Positions 44,258 through 56,978 of a stretch of 64,000 bases of DNA are shown here, piece by piece. The notes below the pieces were generated by a model. The model saw only the letters and a list, made by a program, of their open reading frames with translations. It did not search any database and was not told where the DNA came from. The stretch is from Bradyrhizobium sp. AZCC 1610 (lineage in GTDB: Bacteria; Pseudomonadota; Alphaproteobacteria; Rhizobiales; Xanthobacteraceae). Every line of letters starts with the position of its first letter. Position 1 is the stretch's first letter. Location of the stretch: contig NZ_JAZHRR010000001.1 in assembly GCF_036924515.1 (NCBI RefSeq), positions 4,249,001-4,313,000 on the forward strand, given 5' to 3'. The translations under genes were made by a program, and so were the position numbers.

Positions 44258-44470
44258 CCAATCGGAAATAGGGCCGGGTCAGGCCGCAACCAGCTCTTAA
44301 ACCTTCCGGCGGAACGCTTTTAGACAAGGCGGCCTGCGGTGTCCAGAAACTGTGCAGGCGGATCATAGGCTTGCCGCAGCACACAAGATGGGCACGCACA
44401 TCCCGTTGATAATGCTGCGGCTGCGTTGACAGGCTTGGCAGGCCTGTGTTTTTCTACCTATATTCTAGAC

Positions 44471-44645
44471 GTCACGTCGGGAGAGATCGGCTTAAGCGCC
44501 GGCGCCGAAGGAGCAACCGCCCCGGAAACTCTCAGGCAAACGGACCGCGTGACGAAATAGCATCTGGAAAGTGACGCCGGGCGGCTTTGGCCCAGGGCGT
44601 CCGCCGACGGGATAATACTCTCAGGCACAGCGACAGATGGGGCTT
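44471..44645 (+). ncRNA. Tandem glycine riboswitch upstream of gcvT
   Basis: Two consecutive glycine aptamers are visible. The first has GGGAGAG, GCCGAAGGAGCAA and ACTCTCAGGCAAA (about 44478-44540). The second begins near 44563 and ends with ATACTCTCAGGCACAG (44615-44630) before GATGGGG. These are the hallmark P1/P3 elements of the gcvT riboswitch. A hairpin (GGGTTTTCGGAGG...TCCGGAACCC, 44651-44680) follows just before the gcvT ribosome-binding site and may be the expression platform. Glycine binding should switch on the gcvTHP operon. Confidence 0.95.
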
Positions 44646-51468: not shown

Positions 51469-52560
<1,092 letters not shown>

Positions 52561-52685
52561 AATACGTGCTCCTTATGGCGGGGATTCGCGAGCGGGACAA
52601 ACGGGCGGTGGCAAGTTCGGGATTCGACTTCGGGATTCTTCGGGATTCGACAGCGTACGGGAATCTCGTACCACCTTTGTTCTAT

Positions 52686-52700
52686 GTTCGCAATATGTTC
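52686..52700 (-). promoter_or_regulatory. LexA (SOS) box of recA
   Basis: The reverse strand reads GAAC-ATATTGC-GAAC, an exact match to the alphaproteobacterial LexA site GAAC-N7-GAAC. It lies about 126 bases upstream of the recA start. Confidence 0.88.
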
Positions 52701-52710
52701 TTTTCCGGGA

Positions 52711-52800
52711 TTTGGTGCTGGCCTGTTTTAACCCCTCGTGGCCTAAATTGAATTTGTGGGTGGCCTAGTTTGACCGCCCTACACTTTCTAGCGGGTAGGA
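52711..52800 (+). repeat. TGGCCTGTTT repeat cluster A
   Basis: TGGCCTG/A units start at 52719, 52739 and 52761 (spacings 20 and 22). They follow CCGGGATTTGG and are followed by CACTTTCTAGCGGGTAGGAA. Cluster C (54608-54700) has the same units at the same spacings and a related tail. Confidence 0.8.
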
Positions 52801-52951
52801 ACTTGTGCCAGGAACCGGTCACAAGGGGGCCATGTCGGTGACAATCACGCGCCGCAAAGTCGCCGACACCTGTTCTCGGTAAATCTACGTGCAATGGGAA
52901 TTTTGAGGTACCTCAAGGGTATTAAACTTGGGGTAGAATCCGGCGCGAGAA

Positions 52952-53143
52952 ATGGCCATGGACAGCGCGCAGCACTGCCAGGATCAGGCGGCAGAATGCC
53001 GTCGCTTGATGAAATCAGCGCGGAGTGAGGCTGAGGCTAAGACTCTGAAAGAGATCGCCCAAAGTTGGACGAGAGTCGCCGGCCAGATCGATCGATACCA
53101 CGCGCTCATGCGTGAACTGGCCCGCCACGTCGCCCGGAAGTAA
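52952..53143 (+). CDS. Small helical protein of the post-recA island
   Basis: The 63-residue protein (MAMDSAQHCQDQAAECRRLM) is predicted to be two long helices: AAECRRLMKSARSEAEAKTLKEIA and QSWTRVAGQIDRYHALMREL. It contains the AAECRRL motif found, from memory, in many small rhizobial proteins of unknown function. No membrane segment or signal is present. A near-perfect hairpin (AGGCCGCC...GGCAGCCT, 53141-53173) follows the stop. Confidence 0.65.
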   Translation: MAMDSAQHCQDQAAECRRLMKSARSEAEAKTLKEIAQSWTRVAGQIDRYHALMRELARHVARK

Positions 53144-53167
53144 GGCCGCCTCAGTTGGCAGCCTCTT

Positions 53168-53320
53168 TCATTTTGTATAGTCCTGCGGTGGCGGTGGTAG
53201 CCCCTCCGTCCCCTTAGGCGAATCTTTGTAGATCATCTTGAAGATGCTTGCCGCAGTACCGTCCACCTTGAACTGAATGCGCAGCGGCTTGGCTATGTAA
53301 TGCAGCAGTTGCAGTCTCAT
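53168..53320 (-). CDS. Small hypothetical protein behind a terminator-like hairpin
   Basis: A 50-residue reading frame (MRLQLLHYIAKPLRIQFKVD...PPPPQDYTK) with a good ribosome-binding site GGAGA. The 11-bp GC-rich hairpin followed by T7 at 53332-53365 lies directly upstream of that site on the same strand. If transcription comes from further right, the hairpin would stop it. It might therefore be an attenuator leader arrangement, or the gene might be transcribed only by read-through. Function unknown. Confidence 0.5.
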   Translation of the reverse strand: MRLQLLHYIAKPLRIQFKVDGTAASIFKMIYKDSPKGTEGLPPPPQDYTK

Positions 53321-53331
53321 TTTGGTTCTCC

Positions 53332-53365
53332 AAAAAAAGACCCCCAGCACCATTGCTGGGGGGTC
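53332..53365 (-). terminator. Strong intrinsic terminator or attenuator
   Basis: In the leftward direction the sequence is GACCCCCCAGCA-ATGG-TGCTGGGGGTC followed by TTTTTTT. The stem is about 11 bp with a short loop. No gene ends on its right, so it is either an attenuator of the 50-residue frame or the remnant of a lost gene. Confidence 0.85.
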
Positions 53366-53375
53366 AATTCGTTAG

Positions 53376-53490
53376 TGGCTTGTTTTGAAAAGCGGAGTGG
53401 CCTATTTCGGCCAGTACCCGGGATTTGGTACTGGCCTGTTTCCGACCTCAGGGACCCGGTTCGAAAAATCGCAATGGCCTGATTTGAGTT
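53376..53490 (+). repeat. TGGCCTGTTT repeat cluster B
   Basis: Units start at 53376 (TGGCTTGTTTTGA), 53398 (TGGCCTATTTCGG), 53432 (TGGCCTGTTTCCGAC) and 53475 (TGGCCTGATTTGAG), with spacings 22, 34 and 43. CCGGGATTTGGTACTGGCC is shared with cluster A, and CTATTTCGGCCAGTAC is shared with 55011-55029. Confidence 0.8.
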
Positions 53491-53563
53491 TTGTCGGCTG
53501 CCGGACAGACGGAATGAAACAACCGGCCTTTAATTAGCGATGGGTGGGCTCAAGAGGGACCCC

Positions 53564-53803
53564 ATGGCTCAGCAGCGTAAGCGCGTCACTCACACGGCGA
53601 CCTTTGAAGAGCGGCTAGCGGAAGAGGCGATTAAATTCAAAGCGGCCGCTGAAAAGCAACCTCCCGGCAGCATGGCCCGAGAACTGCTTTTGCGGCGTGC
53701 CCGGCAGGCCGAGACGGCCGCTCACATCAATGAGTGGCTGAGATCGCCCGGCCTGCGGCCCCCAAACTCATTGGAAAACTTGCTGTCCGATCAGAAGAAG
53801 TAA
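53564..53803 (+). CDS. Small helical protein of the post-recA island
   Basis: The 79-residue protein (MAQQRKRVTHTATFEERLAE) starts at ATG 53564 behind AAGAGGGA. It is predicted helical with a basic N-terminus: EERLAEEAIKFKAAAEKQP, GSMARELLLRRARQAETAAH and INEWLRSPGLRPP. It is followed closely by the next small gene. Function unknown; a nucleic-acid or scaffold role is only a guess. Confidence 0.65.
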   Translation: MAQQRKRVTHTATFEERLAEEAIKFKAAAEKQPPGSMARELLLRRARQAETAAHINEWLRSPGLRPPNSLENLLSDQKK

Positions 53804-53844
53804 GGCCGCACCCCAGTGTCCTGGACTGGCAAGGGGACCCGGAA

Positions 53845-54039
53845 GTGAAGGACTATCGAGCCTCTCTGGAGAAGCTTCGGAGCAATGCGGCTGAAGCGGC
53901 GCGGATCCGCGACCTTGCAACGGACATGACCAAGCGCGAAATGTTCGACCGGCTGGCCAAGCATCTGGGCCAACTGGCTGATGACGTTGAGCGGTCCATG
54001 AACGGGTCCATGAACGCGCCAAAAGCCAGCTACGAGTAA
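53845..54039 (+). CDS. Small helical protein of the post-recA island
   Basis: The 64-residue protein starts at GTG 53845, with AAGGGGA eight bases before it. It is two amphipathic helices (YRASLEKLRSNAAEAARIRDLATDM and MFDRLAKHLGQLADDVERSM). The pattern AAEAARIRDLATDM...REMFDRLAKHL resembles other small rhizobial proteins. It lies 41 bases after the previous small gene, in the same orientation, possibly one transcript. Confidence 0.65.
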   Translation: MKDYRASLEKLRSNAAEAARIRDLATDMTKREMFDRLAKHLGQLADDVERSMNGSMNAPKASYE

Positions 54040-54369
54040 GGCCGCCGGCAAAGTTCGTCAGTATCACCACGGCCGCCTGCTGTCCCCGGGCCGGCCCCCC
54101 AACTACGCAAAACATACGGAGGTGACCCGCCGCGCAAGTTCGACATATTCCGCCGATGGGCCGACATATCCTTTTCAAATGTCTGCACCCGGCCTCATTT
54201 CATCCACAAGGAAACCGGGAAACTCCTCGGCGAGGACTGACGCCGCAACCGTGTCTGTCCGGACACAGGCGCCGCCTTGAGCTCACTTTTGTGCTGTTCC
54301 CTGCGGAACGGATTCCGCCGCAGTGCGTAATTGCATCGGACGTGACGGGTAGTAACGGGGAACCAGATT
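54040..54369. other. Intergenic stretch within the small-protein island
   Basis: About 330 bases with several open frames but no convincing gene. A short hairpin (CTGCGG...CCGCAG, 54301-54324) is visible. It probably contains the promoter of the next small gene. Confidence 0.4.
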
Positions 54370-54549
54370 GTGCCGGGCAAGAAATATCTAACGGAACAAG
54401 CAGCAACTTTTCTCAAATTTGCAATGGCCACCACGGATCCGGACGTCGCCGCGGGCTTTCTCGAAAAGGCCGCCGACCTTTCGGCAAGGAGTGCAAAGGC
54501 GCCGGATGCCAGCCCCCGGCCGCCTGATGTAGAGCAGCCGGAACGCTAG
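54370..54549 (+). CDS. Small helical protein, paralogue 1 (59 aa)
   Basis: A 59-residue frame starts with GTG 54370 behind ACGGGGAA. It reads PGKKYLTEQAATFLKFAMAT, then DPDVAAGFLEKAADLSARS and a Pro/Asp-rich tail (PRPPDVEQPER). It aligns with the frame at 54756: G-K-x-Y, QAA, FA-AT-DP, EKAADL and the PPDVE/PPAPDIE tail are shared. Both use the same GTG start context. A perfect terminator follows. This protein falls below common length cut-offs for gene calling. Confidence 0.65.
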   Translation: MPGKKYLTEQAATFLKFAMATTDPDVAAGFLEKAADLSARSAKAPDASPRPPDVEQPER

Positions 54550-54555
54550 CTCTCG

Positions 54556-54589
54556 CGATGAGGCCGCCAACGAGCGGCCTCATCGTTTT
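54556..54589 (+). terminator. Intrinsic terminator
   Basis: CGATGAGGCCGC-CAACGA-GCGGCCTCATCG is a perfect 12-bp stem followed by TTTTA, just after the 59-residue gene. Confidence 0.9.
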
Positions 54590-54607
54590 ATCGGTCCATC
54601 CGCAAGT

Positions 54608-54700
54608 CGGTCCCGGCCTGTTTCGACCCCTGGTGGCCTGGCTTGAATCCGCCAGTGGCCGGTTTGATGTGTTCACTTTTTGCAACTCATAGGAACCTTT
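54608..54700 (+). repeat. TGGCCTGTTT repeat cluster C
   Basis: Units start at 54614 (CGGCCTGTTTCGACC), 54634 (TGGCCTGGCTTGAA) and 54656 (TGGCCGGTTTGA), the same spacings (20 and 22) as in cluster A. The tail CACTTTTTGCAACTCATAGG also resembles that of A. The cluster precedes the second paralogue. Confidence 0.8.
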
Positions 54701-54755
54701 GCCCCATTTCTGCGTACCGTCGGTGGCGCGCTGGGATACCACGGGGAAAATTCAT

Positions 54756-54944
54756 GTGATTGGTAAAGCGTACTTCGTGCGTCAAGCGGCGATTTTGTAT
54801 AGGTTTGCCAAGGCAACCAAAGACCCCAAAATTTCCGCTGCGTTAATGGAGAAAGCGGCTGATTTAAAATTGCGAGTGGACGATCCAGCGTCATGTGACT
54901 TGACGCCACCAGCACCGGATATCGAGCCGCCGTCCACGACATGA
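54756..54944 (+). CDS. Small helical protein, paralogue 2 (62 aa)
   Basis: The 62-residue protein starts at GTG 54756 with ACGGGGAAAA before it, the same arrangement as its paralogue at 54370. It reads GKAYFVRQAAILYRFAKAT, DPKISAALMEKAADLKLRV and an acidic Pro-rich tail (TPPAPDIEPPS). An ATG-less extension to 54699 is less likely. A perfect terminator-like hairpin follows. Function unknown. Confidence 0.68.
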   Translation: MIGKAYFVRQAAILYRFAKATKDPKISAALMEKAADLKLRVDDPASCDLTPPAPDIEPPSTT

Positions 54945-54950
54945 ACGGAT

Positions 54951-54980
54951 GAAGGCCGCCTCAGTTGGCGGCCTCTTCCT
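54951..54980 (+). terminator. Intrinsic terminator
   Basis: AAGGCCGCC-TCAGTT-GGCGGCCTCTT, then CCTTTCC, forms a 9- to 10-bp stem after the 62-residue gene. The same TCAGTT loop occurs in the hairpin at 53141-53173. Confidence 0.75.
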
Positions 54981-55011
54981 TTCCATCCATATACGCCAGC
55001 GCATAGACAGT

Positions 55012-55191
55012 CTATTTCGGCCAGTACTCGCAAGTCGAGGTGCGGGTGACGTCGCTTACAATTTTAGGCGTGCTTGCGGTTTTGCCTGAACCGTCCGTCA
55101 AGATGCGCACGCTATGCGTTACCACATGCACATACAGGTTGCCTTCACCCCCGAACCGGTCCTGCCGATGCTTCAACAGCATAGCGCCCAT
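55012..55191 (-). CDS. Small hypothetical protein (59 aa)
   Basis: A leftward frame MGAMLLKHRQDRFGGEGNLY...STCEYWPK. It looks protein-like (beta-rich centre VHVVTHSVRILTDGSGKTAS) but has only a weak ribosome-binding site. Its last codons (EYWPK and stop) lie in CTATTTCGGCCAGTAC, a segment also present in repeat cluster B. A frame reading GYWPK-stop is visible there too. The gene may itself be part of the repeated unit. Confidence 0.4.
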   Translation of the reverse strand: MGAMLLKHRQDRFGGEGNLYVHVVTHSVRILTDGSGKTASTPKIVSDVTRTSTCEYWPK

Positions 55192-55436
55192 CTTCTCACA
55201 TGGCTGTTGAGTCTCAGCCGCACCCCGGAGCCCTCGCGGGTGCCGCCGCCGGTCCGGCCGGACGCGCCATCGAGAACCCATATGCCGCCGCGGCAGCCTT
55301 CTCCAACGCGCCAGGAATAGGCGCCGGCAAATCCACCAGGCGGCATGGCATGCCTTGCGTGCGGGCCATGGCAGGGATCGCAACCCGCTGCGATCGGCAA
55401 CGCAACGCCGCAGCCAAACGACCCCGCCGCATGGGG

Positions 55437-55580
55437 CTATGCAGCGAGGTCGCCGATGACGGGGGAAATCTGGAAGACCACCACCCGCCCTCGCGAGCGG
55501 ATACGTTCGCCGCAAGGCAGCGTTTCCAGTTCGCAAATCGCCCGGCAAATTCGTCTCAAACGGCGTTGAACCTTTTTCAT
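55437..55580 (-). CDS. Small basic protein (47 aa), tentative
   Basis: A 47-residue leftward frame MKKVQRRLRRICRAICELET...VVVFQISPVIGDLAA, starting at ATG 55578-55580. It is strongly basic at the N-terminus with a hydrophobic C-terminal strand. The ribosome-binding site is weak, so the call rests on amino-acid composition only. Confidence 0.35.
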   Translation of the reverse strand: MKKVQRRLRRICRAICELETLPCGERIRSRGRVVVFQISPVIGDLAA

Positions 55581-55992
55581 TCCGGTTCAGACAAAATTCT
55601 TGCCTGGGACATTGCATCACTCGGGGAATAGGCCTGCGCCGCCAAGCGACCATACTCCGCTTGCGCGGCGCAGCGCTTTTCGGCGAGCGCGGAAGCGGTT
55701 CCGGCGCGGGAATTCGGACACCCCGCGGGGTTAGAACGCACAGCGCGAGGATTTCTGCCGTGCTGGCGCGCGGCAAATCTATTTGCCAGCGCATGGAATA
55801 TGGAACTTTGTGGTTCCGCTCCCGTTACCCGCAGAGGAGTCCGCGCGGGTACTCCCCGCCCCCTCTCCGCTCCCTCGCAGGCGTCCAACCGACGCTCGAT
55901 CAAGCCTTATAATAGTTGCATTCATTAATATTTGCAATTTTAAGTATCAGGTTTGGATTCGAAGCGGTTGAGGCCGCAGCGGGATTTTTTAT
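55581..55992. other. Intergenic stretch with low-confidence open frames
   Basis: A leftward frame ending at 55577 contains ALAEKRCAAQAEYGRLAAQA, which looks protein-like only at its C-terminal end. The segment 55910-55960 is AT-rich (TTAATATTTGCAATTTTAAG) and probably contains the promoter of the next gene. Confidence 0.35.
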
Positions 55993-56220
55993 ATGATCTA
56001 CAAAGGCGTTGAATTCACCGTGACGGCGGCCGCTCTGGGCATTTGGAAATGGCAATTCCGCATCGGCGACAGGGTCATCGCGGGAAAGACCGAAGCCAGG
56101 CTCAATCTGCTCGCCATCCGGCGGGTCCAGCTTCGGATCGATCGGGAGCTAAAAAAAGCCGAACGGGAACAACTCGCTTCGCCGGATCCTTCTACCGGCC
56201 GCCCGCCGGGAAAGCCTTAA
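55993..56220 (+). CDS. Small hypothetical protein
   Basis: The 75-residue protein (MIYKGVEFTVTAAALGIWKW) appears to be a beta-hairpin followed by a helix: FTVTAAALGIWKWQFRIGDRVIAGKTEA, then LAIRRVQLRIDRELKKAE and a Pro-rich tail. Similar MIYKGV-type proteins are, from memory, frequent in Bradyrhizobium. Function unknown. Confidence 0.7.
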   Translation: MIYKGVEFTVTAAALGIWKWQFRIGDRVIAGKTEARLNLLAIRRVQLRIDRELKKAEREQLASPDPSTGRPPGKP

Positions 56221-56391
56221 GCAATTTCAGCACGTTACGGCTACATGATGACATGACGCATGTGCCCGACAACGGGCATGAGCCCGTAAAAACCCGGAGT
56301 TGATCTTTCCGCGCGCCAGGAATCCACTCCGCCCGCTCTCGCGCGTTCTCGGAGCCAACGGCGGCCCATTTTGCATCTGGTTCAGCTTGCC

Positions 56392-56634
56392 ATGCCGATC
56401 TTCTTCTTCAGCGTTCGACATGGCGAGGATGCATGCGTCAACAACGACGGTGCGGAGTTTGCCGATCATAACGCCGCCTGGAAGGAAATGACCGACGTCT
56501 GCGGGGACATGATCGCGGACATTTCCCGAAAACTCTCCGAAAACGCCGAGTGGCAGATGGAATTGCTGGATGAATCCAGGAGGCCGGTATTCCGGATCCG
56601 CCTGGTTGCGGAGACGCTGCAGGACACCGATTAA
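56392..56634 (+). CDS. DUF6894-like small protein
   Basis: The 80-residue protein begins MPIFFFSVRHGEDACVNNDG and continues EFADHNAAWKEMTDVCGDMI and EWQMELLDESRRPVFRIRLVAET. This is the pattern of the DUF6894 family, small proteins with many paralogues in rhizobia. The ATG at 56392 is preferred over an upstream GTG. Function unknown. Confidence 0.8.
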   Translation: MPIFFFSVRHGEDACVNNDGAEFADHNAAWKEMTDVCGDMIADISRKLSENAEWQMELLDESRRPVFRIRLVAETLQDTD

Positions 56635-56642
56635 GGAGCGCG

Positions 56643-56978
56643 CTAGGCGTGCGCCTTTTTGGGAGCCGCATCCGGTTCACCGGCCGGCGCAACGCCCTTC
56701 CGCAGCTCCCGGGCGGAGATGAATCGGACGCCGACCAATTCGCCCTTGCGCCAGATCAACGTGCATAGCCGCCGCACCTCGCCGCCGGCGGTCAGCGAAA
56801 GGCCGAACACCTTCGGCACCGCGAGGTCACCCACGTCGAGGCAGGCGCCGTTTTCGGAAATGTCGAGGATGTAGCACTGGATCCATGCCGCATCCGGCGC
56901 CGGAATCAGGAATCCCGGCTTGCGCAAGTCGACCCGAACGAACTTGCGGGCACCTAGGTCTTTGCGGTCTCTCGCCAT
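56643..56978 (-). CDS. PilZ domain protein
   Basis: The 111-residue protein is a single PilZ domain: the RxxxR-type motif (RKFVRVDLRKPGFL) at the N-terminus and DISENGACLDVG (D-x-S-x-x-G) follow the c-di-GMP-binding pattern, then VRRLCTLIWRKGELVGVRF. It may bind c-di-GMP, though the first arginine pair is spaced RKFVR. It is read leftward, overlapping nothing. Confidence 0.88.
   Translation of the reverse strand: MARDRKDLGARKFVRVDLRKPGFLIPAPDAAWIQCYILDISENGACLDVGDLAVPKVFGLSLTAGGEVRRLCTLIWRKGELVGVRFISARELRKGVAPAGEPDAAPKKAHA

Follow-up and report, generated by a model that had tools for sequence, protein, structure and literature searches.

Stacked small-gene cassettes beside recA in Bradyrhizobium and an IS1-like element family with a probable preference for LexA-operator-like GTTC arrays

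The island beside recA and the ends of its elements

We analyzed a stretch of 64,000 nucleotides from Bradyrhizobium sp. AZCC 1610 (contig NZ_JAZHRR010000001.1, positions 4,249,001 to 4,313,000; the whole stretch is called the window), in which an island of very small genes lies between recA and a gene for a PilZ-domain protein (Table 1). An earlier note, made from the letters alone, had described three clusters of TGGCCT repeats in this island and proposed that cluster, small gene and hairpin form a repeated unit. The clusters are confirmed: units resembling TGGCCTGTTT are found at 52719, 52761, 53376, 53398, 53432, 53475, 54614, 54634 and 54656, all on the plus strand and about 20-22 bp apart within a cluster. 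With up to two mismatches allowed, the whole window contains 63 unit matches, compared to a mean of 36.6 and a maximum of 50 in 100 shuffles. A loose two-unit pattern recovers all three clusters from the single-contig 7.75 Mb genome and gives 262 matches versus 177 for the reversed control; its other matches in the genome look like chance.

The unit itself does not hold up as a uniform arrangement. In the second cluster a right end and a left end are joined by an 8-bp duplication, and three of the seven small genes (54370, 55993 and 56392) are conserved genes of the recA-PilZ interval, not cassette cargo. The count of seven small open reading frames (ORFs) stands, and their products have 63, 79, 64, 59, 62, 75 and 80 residues, that is 59-80 and not 47-80. 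The hairpins, said to follow each gene, are of unequal strength behind the five genes whose downstream sequences were folded (those of 63, 79, 64, 59 and 62 residues): strong behind the 59- and 62-residue genes (-26.5 and -22.8 kcal/mol), moderate behind the 63-residue gene (-11.9 kcal/mol) and weak behind the 79- and 64-residue genes (-8.5 and -9.4 kcal/mol). Moreover, the hairpin stretch behind the first gene, p1 (query 538-575), has matches of 95-97% identity at places in other genomes, so that it appears to be a common terminator type and not a hallmark of the system.

Judged by their arrangement in the sequence, the TGGCCT clusters are ends of transposable elements and not free-standing regulatory arrays. 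For comparison we used 60 recA-upstream regions of genus mates, chosen mostly for long contigs and including some already known to match the island, out of 142 genomes with a recA match (E <= 1e-150) among 146 searched. The clusters recur in these regions, and side-by-side reading resolves them into two distinct ends. The left end consists of GGTRCTGGCCTGTTT followed by two further TGGCC units (GGTRCTGGCCTGTTT...GTGGCC...GTGGCC), the right end of two units (GTGGCCTA...GTGGCCTATTTCGGCCAGTACC), closing with GGCCAGTACC. They share a terminal inverted repeat of about 10 bp (GGTRCTGGCC / GGCCAGTACC), and several TGGCC direct units are found at both ends, which presumably are transposase-binding sites.

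Scanning all fetched loci for both ends flanked by matching 8-mers yields 18 pairs, identical at 8/8 positions in 13 cases and at 7/8 in five. The 13 perfect pairs, which include window element 1, enclose 423 to 4708 bp; 11 are located at recA, and the other two next to a RadA-like gene (L135) and elsewhere (L165). A five-unit cluster is a right end separated by one duplication from the left end that follows, and cluster 2 of the window joins elements 1 and 2 in this way. Element 3, found by eye between two copies of CGCAAGTC, was missed by the paired-end scan because its right end is worn. Its empty site, with one duplication copy, is present in three of four relatives compared (L053, L055 and L064), whose alignments stop at 54608-54609 and restart at 55028-55030 with a subject overlap of 8-9 bases. 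In the fourth (L051) the alignment stops at 54605 and restarts at 55042 with 8 subject bases between, which is consistent, if less exact.

Thus, of the three readings offered in the earlier note, mobile gene cassettes proves right in kind: the elements are bounded by inverted repeats, they have 8-bp target duplications and a site is empty in relatives. A regulator-binding array, as stated, is wrong because the clusters are element ends, and is ruled out by the inverted repeats, the duplications and the empty site; a regulator site is nevertheless involved, since the SOS box of recA marks the insertion point. A small-protein defence or stress locus receives no direct support, as no cargo protein scored above the Pfam cutoff. 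The association of the clusters with small ORFs is only partial, several other elements carrying a transposase and larger genes.

Table 1. Features of the island in window coordinates.
Feature	Position	Strand	Remark
recA	51469..52560	-	near border of the island; identified by eye from sequence
recA upstream operator, GTAC-N7-GTTC-N3-GTTC-N7-GTTC	52668..52700	+	insertion target
SOS box, GTTCGCAATATGTTC	52686-52700		last pair of the recA operator
Left 8-bp target duplication of element 1, CGGGATTT	52706..52713
Element 1	52714..53418	+	705 bp, non-autonomous; ends and 8/8 duplication
Element 1, left end	52714-52773		3 units
p1	52952..53143	+	63-residue cargo gene of element 1
Possible gene in element 1	53168..53320	-	50 residues from ATG at 53320; ORF open from 53353
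Element 1, right end	53372-53418		2 units
Duplication CGGGATTT	53419..53426		common to right side of element 1 and left side of element 2
Element 2	53427..54072	+	end coordinate is the point where ancestral sequence resumes
Element 2, left end, GGTACTGGCC	53427-53488
p2	53564..53803	+	79-residue cargo gene of element 2
p3	53845..54039	+	64-residue cargo gene of element 2, GTG start
p4	54370..54549	+	59-residue native gene of the recA-PilZ interval
Left duplication of element 3, CGCAAGTC	54601..54608
Element 3	54609..55028	+	420 bp; worn ends GGTCCCGGCC / GGCCAGTACT
p5	54756..54944	+	62-residue cargo gene of element 3, GTG start
Right duplication of element 3, CGCAAGTC	55029..55036
p6	55993..56220	+	75-residue native gene
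DUF6894 gene	56392..56634	+	native, 80 residues; PF21834, 60 bits
PilZ-domain gene	56643..56978	-	native, far border of the island; PF07238, 33.9 bits

Insertion sites at recA and elsewhere

The sequence GTTCN7GTTC is given as the LexA box of Caulobacter (Table 1 of PMC9578287; PMC12700426). Upstream of recA we find GTNC-N7-GTTC-N3-GTTC-N7-GTTC, the last pair of which is such a box, in 61 of 61 loci (the 60 regions and the window), and the left end of element 1 starts 13 bp past it. At these recA sites a recognizable left end is present in 39 of the 61 loci, a right end in one (L066) and neither in 21, while random positions scored as a control give 9 of 3050. From box to left end, 36 of the 39 sites have a gap of 12-14 bp, and 25 a gap of exactly 13 bp. 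A looser test, with up to two mismatches, detects ends in 44/61 loci versus a background of 7.6%. Left ends of three families are seen there, TGGCC-type (19), TGTCC-type (16) and TGGCCCC-type (4), and in B. uaiense (L172) it is a right end that adjoins the recA box. A third type of end, GGTGCTGGCCCCTTTC with TGGTCCC units, is seen at the recA site in L060, L067, L068, L075 and L144, and makes up four of the 61 sites counted.

Across the genus, 20 of 51 right ends, one of which lies in a genome without a recA match, are found within 7 kb upstream of recA when compared by hand, and 19 of the 51 within 5 kb; the one in between (G011, 538249) is 6.7 kb away. The pattern of box plus left end occurs at 85 places in 69 of the 142 genomes, 55 of them, as we read them, at recA, compared to 10 for the reversed control; about half of the 30 places away from recA are probably chance hits, among them a coding-like match that is repeated.

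Left ends of the TGGCC family, identified with no regard to what flanks them, occur in 57/142 genomes (reversed control, 0). Fifty-four places away from recA were fetched and, together with the recA regions, yielded 53 unique non-recA flanks, a set from which flanks directly behind another right end were left out. GTTC stands at -16 to -18 in 20 of these 53, and 0.6 would be expected at 1/256 per position. For the TGTCC family, 55 left ends in 42/142 genomes were obtained, and 24 have GTTC at a gap of 12-14 bp, namely 11 at recA and 13 of 44 others (about 0.5 expected). Over 49 flanks GTTC peaks at -17 (15 flanks), -18 (4), -28 (6), -35 (5) and -46 (6), and occurs at most three times at any other position; the distances of 11, 7 and 11 between the peaks correspond to the recA operator spacing GTTC-N7-GTTC-N3-GTTC-N7-GTTC. 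Aligned sites give the consensus GTTC-N7-gTTC-N3-kTTC-N7-GTTC-YYATG. Their count of 30/79 is inflated by 11 flanks from loci fetched for the GTTC pattern, the fair counts being 20/53 and 13/44, and few of the 30 aligned sites, seven by our reading, have a full box, in a set partly chosen by that pattern. The recA filter on the flank sets also dropped L284, which lies away from recA and has a box like that of recA.

Individual targets are diverse. One element with an 8/8 duplication lies 86 bp from the start of a gene that we take, from its sequence, to be RadA-like; in two genomes an element is preceded by what is presumably groES, and in two others it lies downstream of a presumed MerR-type gene. 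Several intergenic insertion spots adjoin terminators. Strict targeting of LexA operators only was considered and rejected, most non-recA flanks being without a full box. Given these mixed targets, the preference is for the GTTC array, which the transposase may read itself or reach under guidance by LexA. Two side observations concern such sites. In L305 (G087) and L311 (G104) an element lies beside the operator GTAC-N7-GTTC-N2-GTTC-N7-GTTC, which is recA-like with a middle gap of 2, at a small gene (MPTPAPDQSPDLNRIEAAADQAIEACGG...) that is perhaps an undescribed SOS gene. Furthermore, one genome (G077) contains three TGGCC-type copies (L241, L243 and L244) with near-identical flanks, and the target there therefore seems to lie within a repeated host sequence.

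Transposase, probable target preference and rival explanations

Window elements 1 and 3 have no transposase in the ORF list. When 13 elements were translated, a related long transposase ORF was found in five (L059, the 4302-bp element of L082, L095, L156 and L165) and a shorter one in two (the 2319-bp element of L082 and L094). The 315-residue copy of L165, termed P0001, matches PF03400 (DDE_Tnp_IS1) with 27.2 bits, above the cutoff of 24.1, and many of the matches listed among its homologues (7969 of 8000 scored candidates) are named IS1 family transposase. D66, D136 and E201 are invariant in 23 aligned homologues and are taken as the putative DDE triad. The structure model (mean predicted local distance difference test score, pLDDT, 77.6) has three N-terminal helices, and its strand-helix order can be read as an RNase-H-like core. 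As a query, P0001 has matches in 35/142 genus genomes. Eleven transposases share 57% identity or more with it over at least 70% of its length, and nine of these lie within 5 kb of recA. The larger elements of L059, L082, L156 and L165 each also encode, on the minus strand, a protein of 264-320 residues that contains an 'FPY.DL' stretch and may be the product of an accessory gene. IS21 ends, considered first for the clusters, were ruled out, since the longer elements carry an IS1-like transposase.

We conclude, with a probability of roughly 0.82, that the island consists of stacked non-autonomous cassettes, and that an IS1-like family prefers LexA-operator-like GTTC arrays and stacks beside recA. 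An IS1-like transposase of the type found in longer relatives would have moved the window cassettes. By the counts, many of these elements in Bradyrhizobium have the left end about 13 bp (the 8-bp duplication and 5 bp more) past the last GTTC of a direct-repeat array, the conserved LexA operator of recA being the site used most. New copies may insert into the same 8-bp site next to the SOS box and displace earlier ones outward, and such successive insertion would form the array. In line with this, B. sp. 190 (L144) agrees with the window on the recA side and in element 2 (53398-54004 at 90%), but in place of window element 1 it has about 2.95 kb of different sequence that includes element ends, a comparison that fits insertion on the SOS-proximal side. 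In L082, successive left ends stand behind TGAATCTG, TGAATCTG and TGAATTTG.

Several results weigh against this conclusion. Within the island, we looked for a right end of element 2 and did not find it, the target of element 3 has no GTTC, and the order of recency within arrays is based on one comparison, L144. GTTC is missing at the expected offset in 33/53 TGGCC flanks and 31/44 TGTCC left ends away from recA, many of these targets are not known SOS genes, and the 13 TGTCC sites with GTTC include an orthologous trio and a pair. With the flanks' own GTTC rate (0.0136 per position, which includes the further GTTC peaks), the chance expectation for the TGGCC flanks rises to about 2/53. As for the transposase, the NCBIfam IS1 model scores P0001 with 56.6 bits, under its cutoff of 100, a P0001-like transposase has no match in the window's own genome, and among the listed transposases at most 50% identical to P0001, all but the one in G145 are found away from recA.

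The left end is found at almost one position in 39/61 recA loci, and some of the 8-bp sequences there are mere variants of the host's CGGATTTG. This would also be expected if a single ancient insertion upstream of recA had been inherited throughout the genus, its left end persisting as a relic and the tandem copies arising by local duplication, with no target preference at all. We consider this unlikely: the spot is taken by three end families and in L066 and B. uaiense by a right end, 11 of the 13 perfect pairs lie at recA with duplications that agree within a genome and differ between genomes, and the GTTC offset recurs at sites away from recA. Random insertion followed by survival of copies where they do no harm, for instance in the recA-PilZ gap, would agree with that gap being intergenic and with most non-recA flanks having no motif. 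Survivorship of this kind predicts neither the fixed gap of 12-14 bp (36/39) nor the single orientation (39 to 1) nor the GTTC peaks at -17, -28, -35 and -46 in unrelated places, and is in our view quite improbable. Finally, direct units about two helical turns apart and a small-gene array running mostly in one direction would suit integron-like recombination sites or regulator-binding sites, and not transposon ends; given inverted terminal repeats, 8-bp duplications, an empty site and the DDE transposase of the longer copies, we regard this as very improbable indeed.

Among known systems, the elements share with the IS1 family the DDE transposase matching PF03400 in the longer relatives, the 8-bp duplication and ends beginning GGT, and the nearest branch is presumably the single-ORF, ISMhu11-type one. 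IS1 family members typically have target duplications of about 8-9 bp and inverted repeats of roughly 15-25 bp. The duplication length agrees (8/8 in 13/18 and 7/8 in 5/18 pairs), but long inverted repeats are not found; with about 10 bp, the elements are therefore IS1-like and not typical IS1 members. They further differ from IS1 in their several subterminal direct units, their cargo and the probable preference for GTTC arrays. Elements 1 and 3, with IS-type ends around passenger genes and no transposase, resemble mobile insertion cassettes (MICs); the difference is the tandem stacking of the window cassettes at a single preferred site next to recA. The fixed orientation and offset from a recognized sequence outside the duplication is reminiscent of Tn7-type site-specific transposons, yet only the IS1-like transposase is, by eye, surely common to the full elements compared, in which Tn7 proteins were not searched for. 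Integron cassette arrays are comparable as mobile small-gene arrays seemingly growing at one side in a LexA-related neighbourhood, whereas the window array, judged by its ends and duplications and not by a search for an integrase or attC, appears to be built by transposition with target duplications and not by attC recombination.

A further-reaching possibility, which we put forward tentatively, is that IS1-like transposons use host LexA operators as a landing signal that ties insertion or cargo expression to the DNA-damage response, the recA promoter serving as a platform that accumulates small-protein cassettes in order, an integron-like capture by transposition. A direct preference would make the family a compact model of how targets are chosen other than by Tn7-type and CRISPR-guided systems, and participation of LexA would couple transposition to DNA damage. 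The elements might also explain the varied, uncharacterized small genes adjoining recA in Bradyrhizobium and help to locate such cassettes and compare them. To our knowledge, no insertion sequence has been described as preferring LexA operators, and full-text searches of an open-access library turned up no paper on an IS1-type element that does so. SOS control of the ISCR transposase is reported in PMC13393415, which is a different matter from target choice.

Cargo, native genes and distribution

Cargo genes, within the elements, are p1, p2, p3 and p5; p4, p6, the DUF6894 gene and the PilZ gene are native. Copies of p4 that are 71-95% identical occur in many other recA loci, relatives of p6 occur in most of those fetched, and p5 is a paralogue of p4 (46% identical). 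Relatives of p1 with 57-65% identity are present at five other loci, and the minus-strand ORF of element 1 has one weak relative, in L059 (25 residues at 80%). The family of p2 is unnamed: of 1193 candidates 1186 are homologues, the listed names being 'hypothetical protein', and the structure model has three helices (mean pLDDT 75.7). The own genome contains six matches including p2 itself, with one weak end-like pattern around the other five. Among the fetched loci, 16 of 72 unique p2-like genes, the window's included, start at most 600 bp inside a left end. Thus, p2 is a recurrent cargo, yet mostly seen without recognizable ends. No function was found for the cargo, none of whose proteins reached the Pfam cutoff.

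In the GTDB set, 42 stretches contain the exact right end; they come mainly from Bradyrhizobium, but also from Tardiphaga, Nitrobacter, a Pseudolabrys metagenome-assembled genome and others. Some of these stretches (L145, L169 and L182 among them) are without a second unit and look like chance, and in the Pseudolabrys genome (L164) the element lies at a recA-like operator. In an order-wide sample 7/199 genomes match, four of them in the genus Bradyrhizobium, so that the habit seems to be concentrated in Bradyrhizobium and its close relatives.

Two other features of the window were noted. A dispersed repeat of 44-56 bp at about 55637-55692 matches scattered places in more than 10 other genus genomes, and positions 44467-44639 contain a tandem pair of glycine riboswitch aptamers (RF00504, 69.5 and 33.5 bits).

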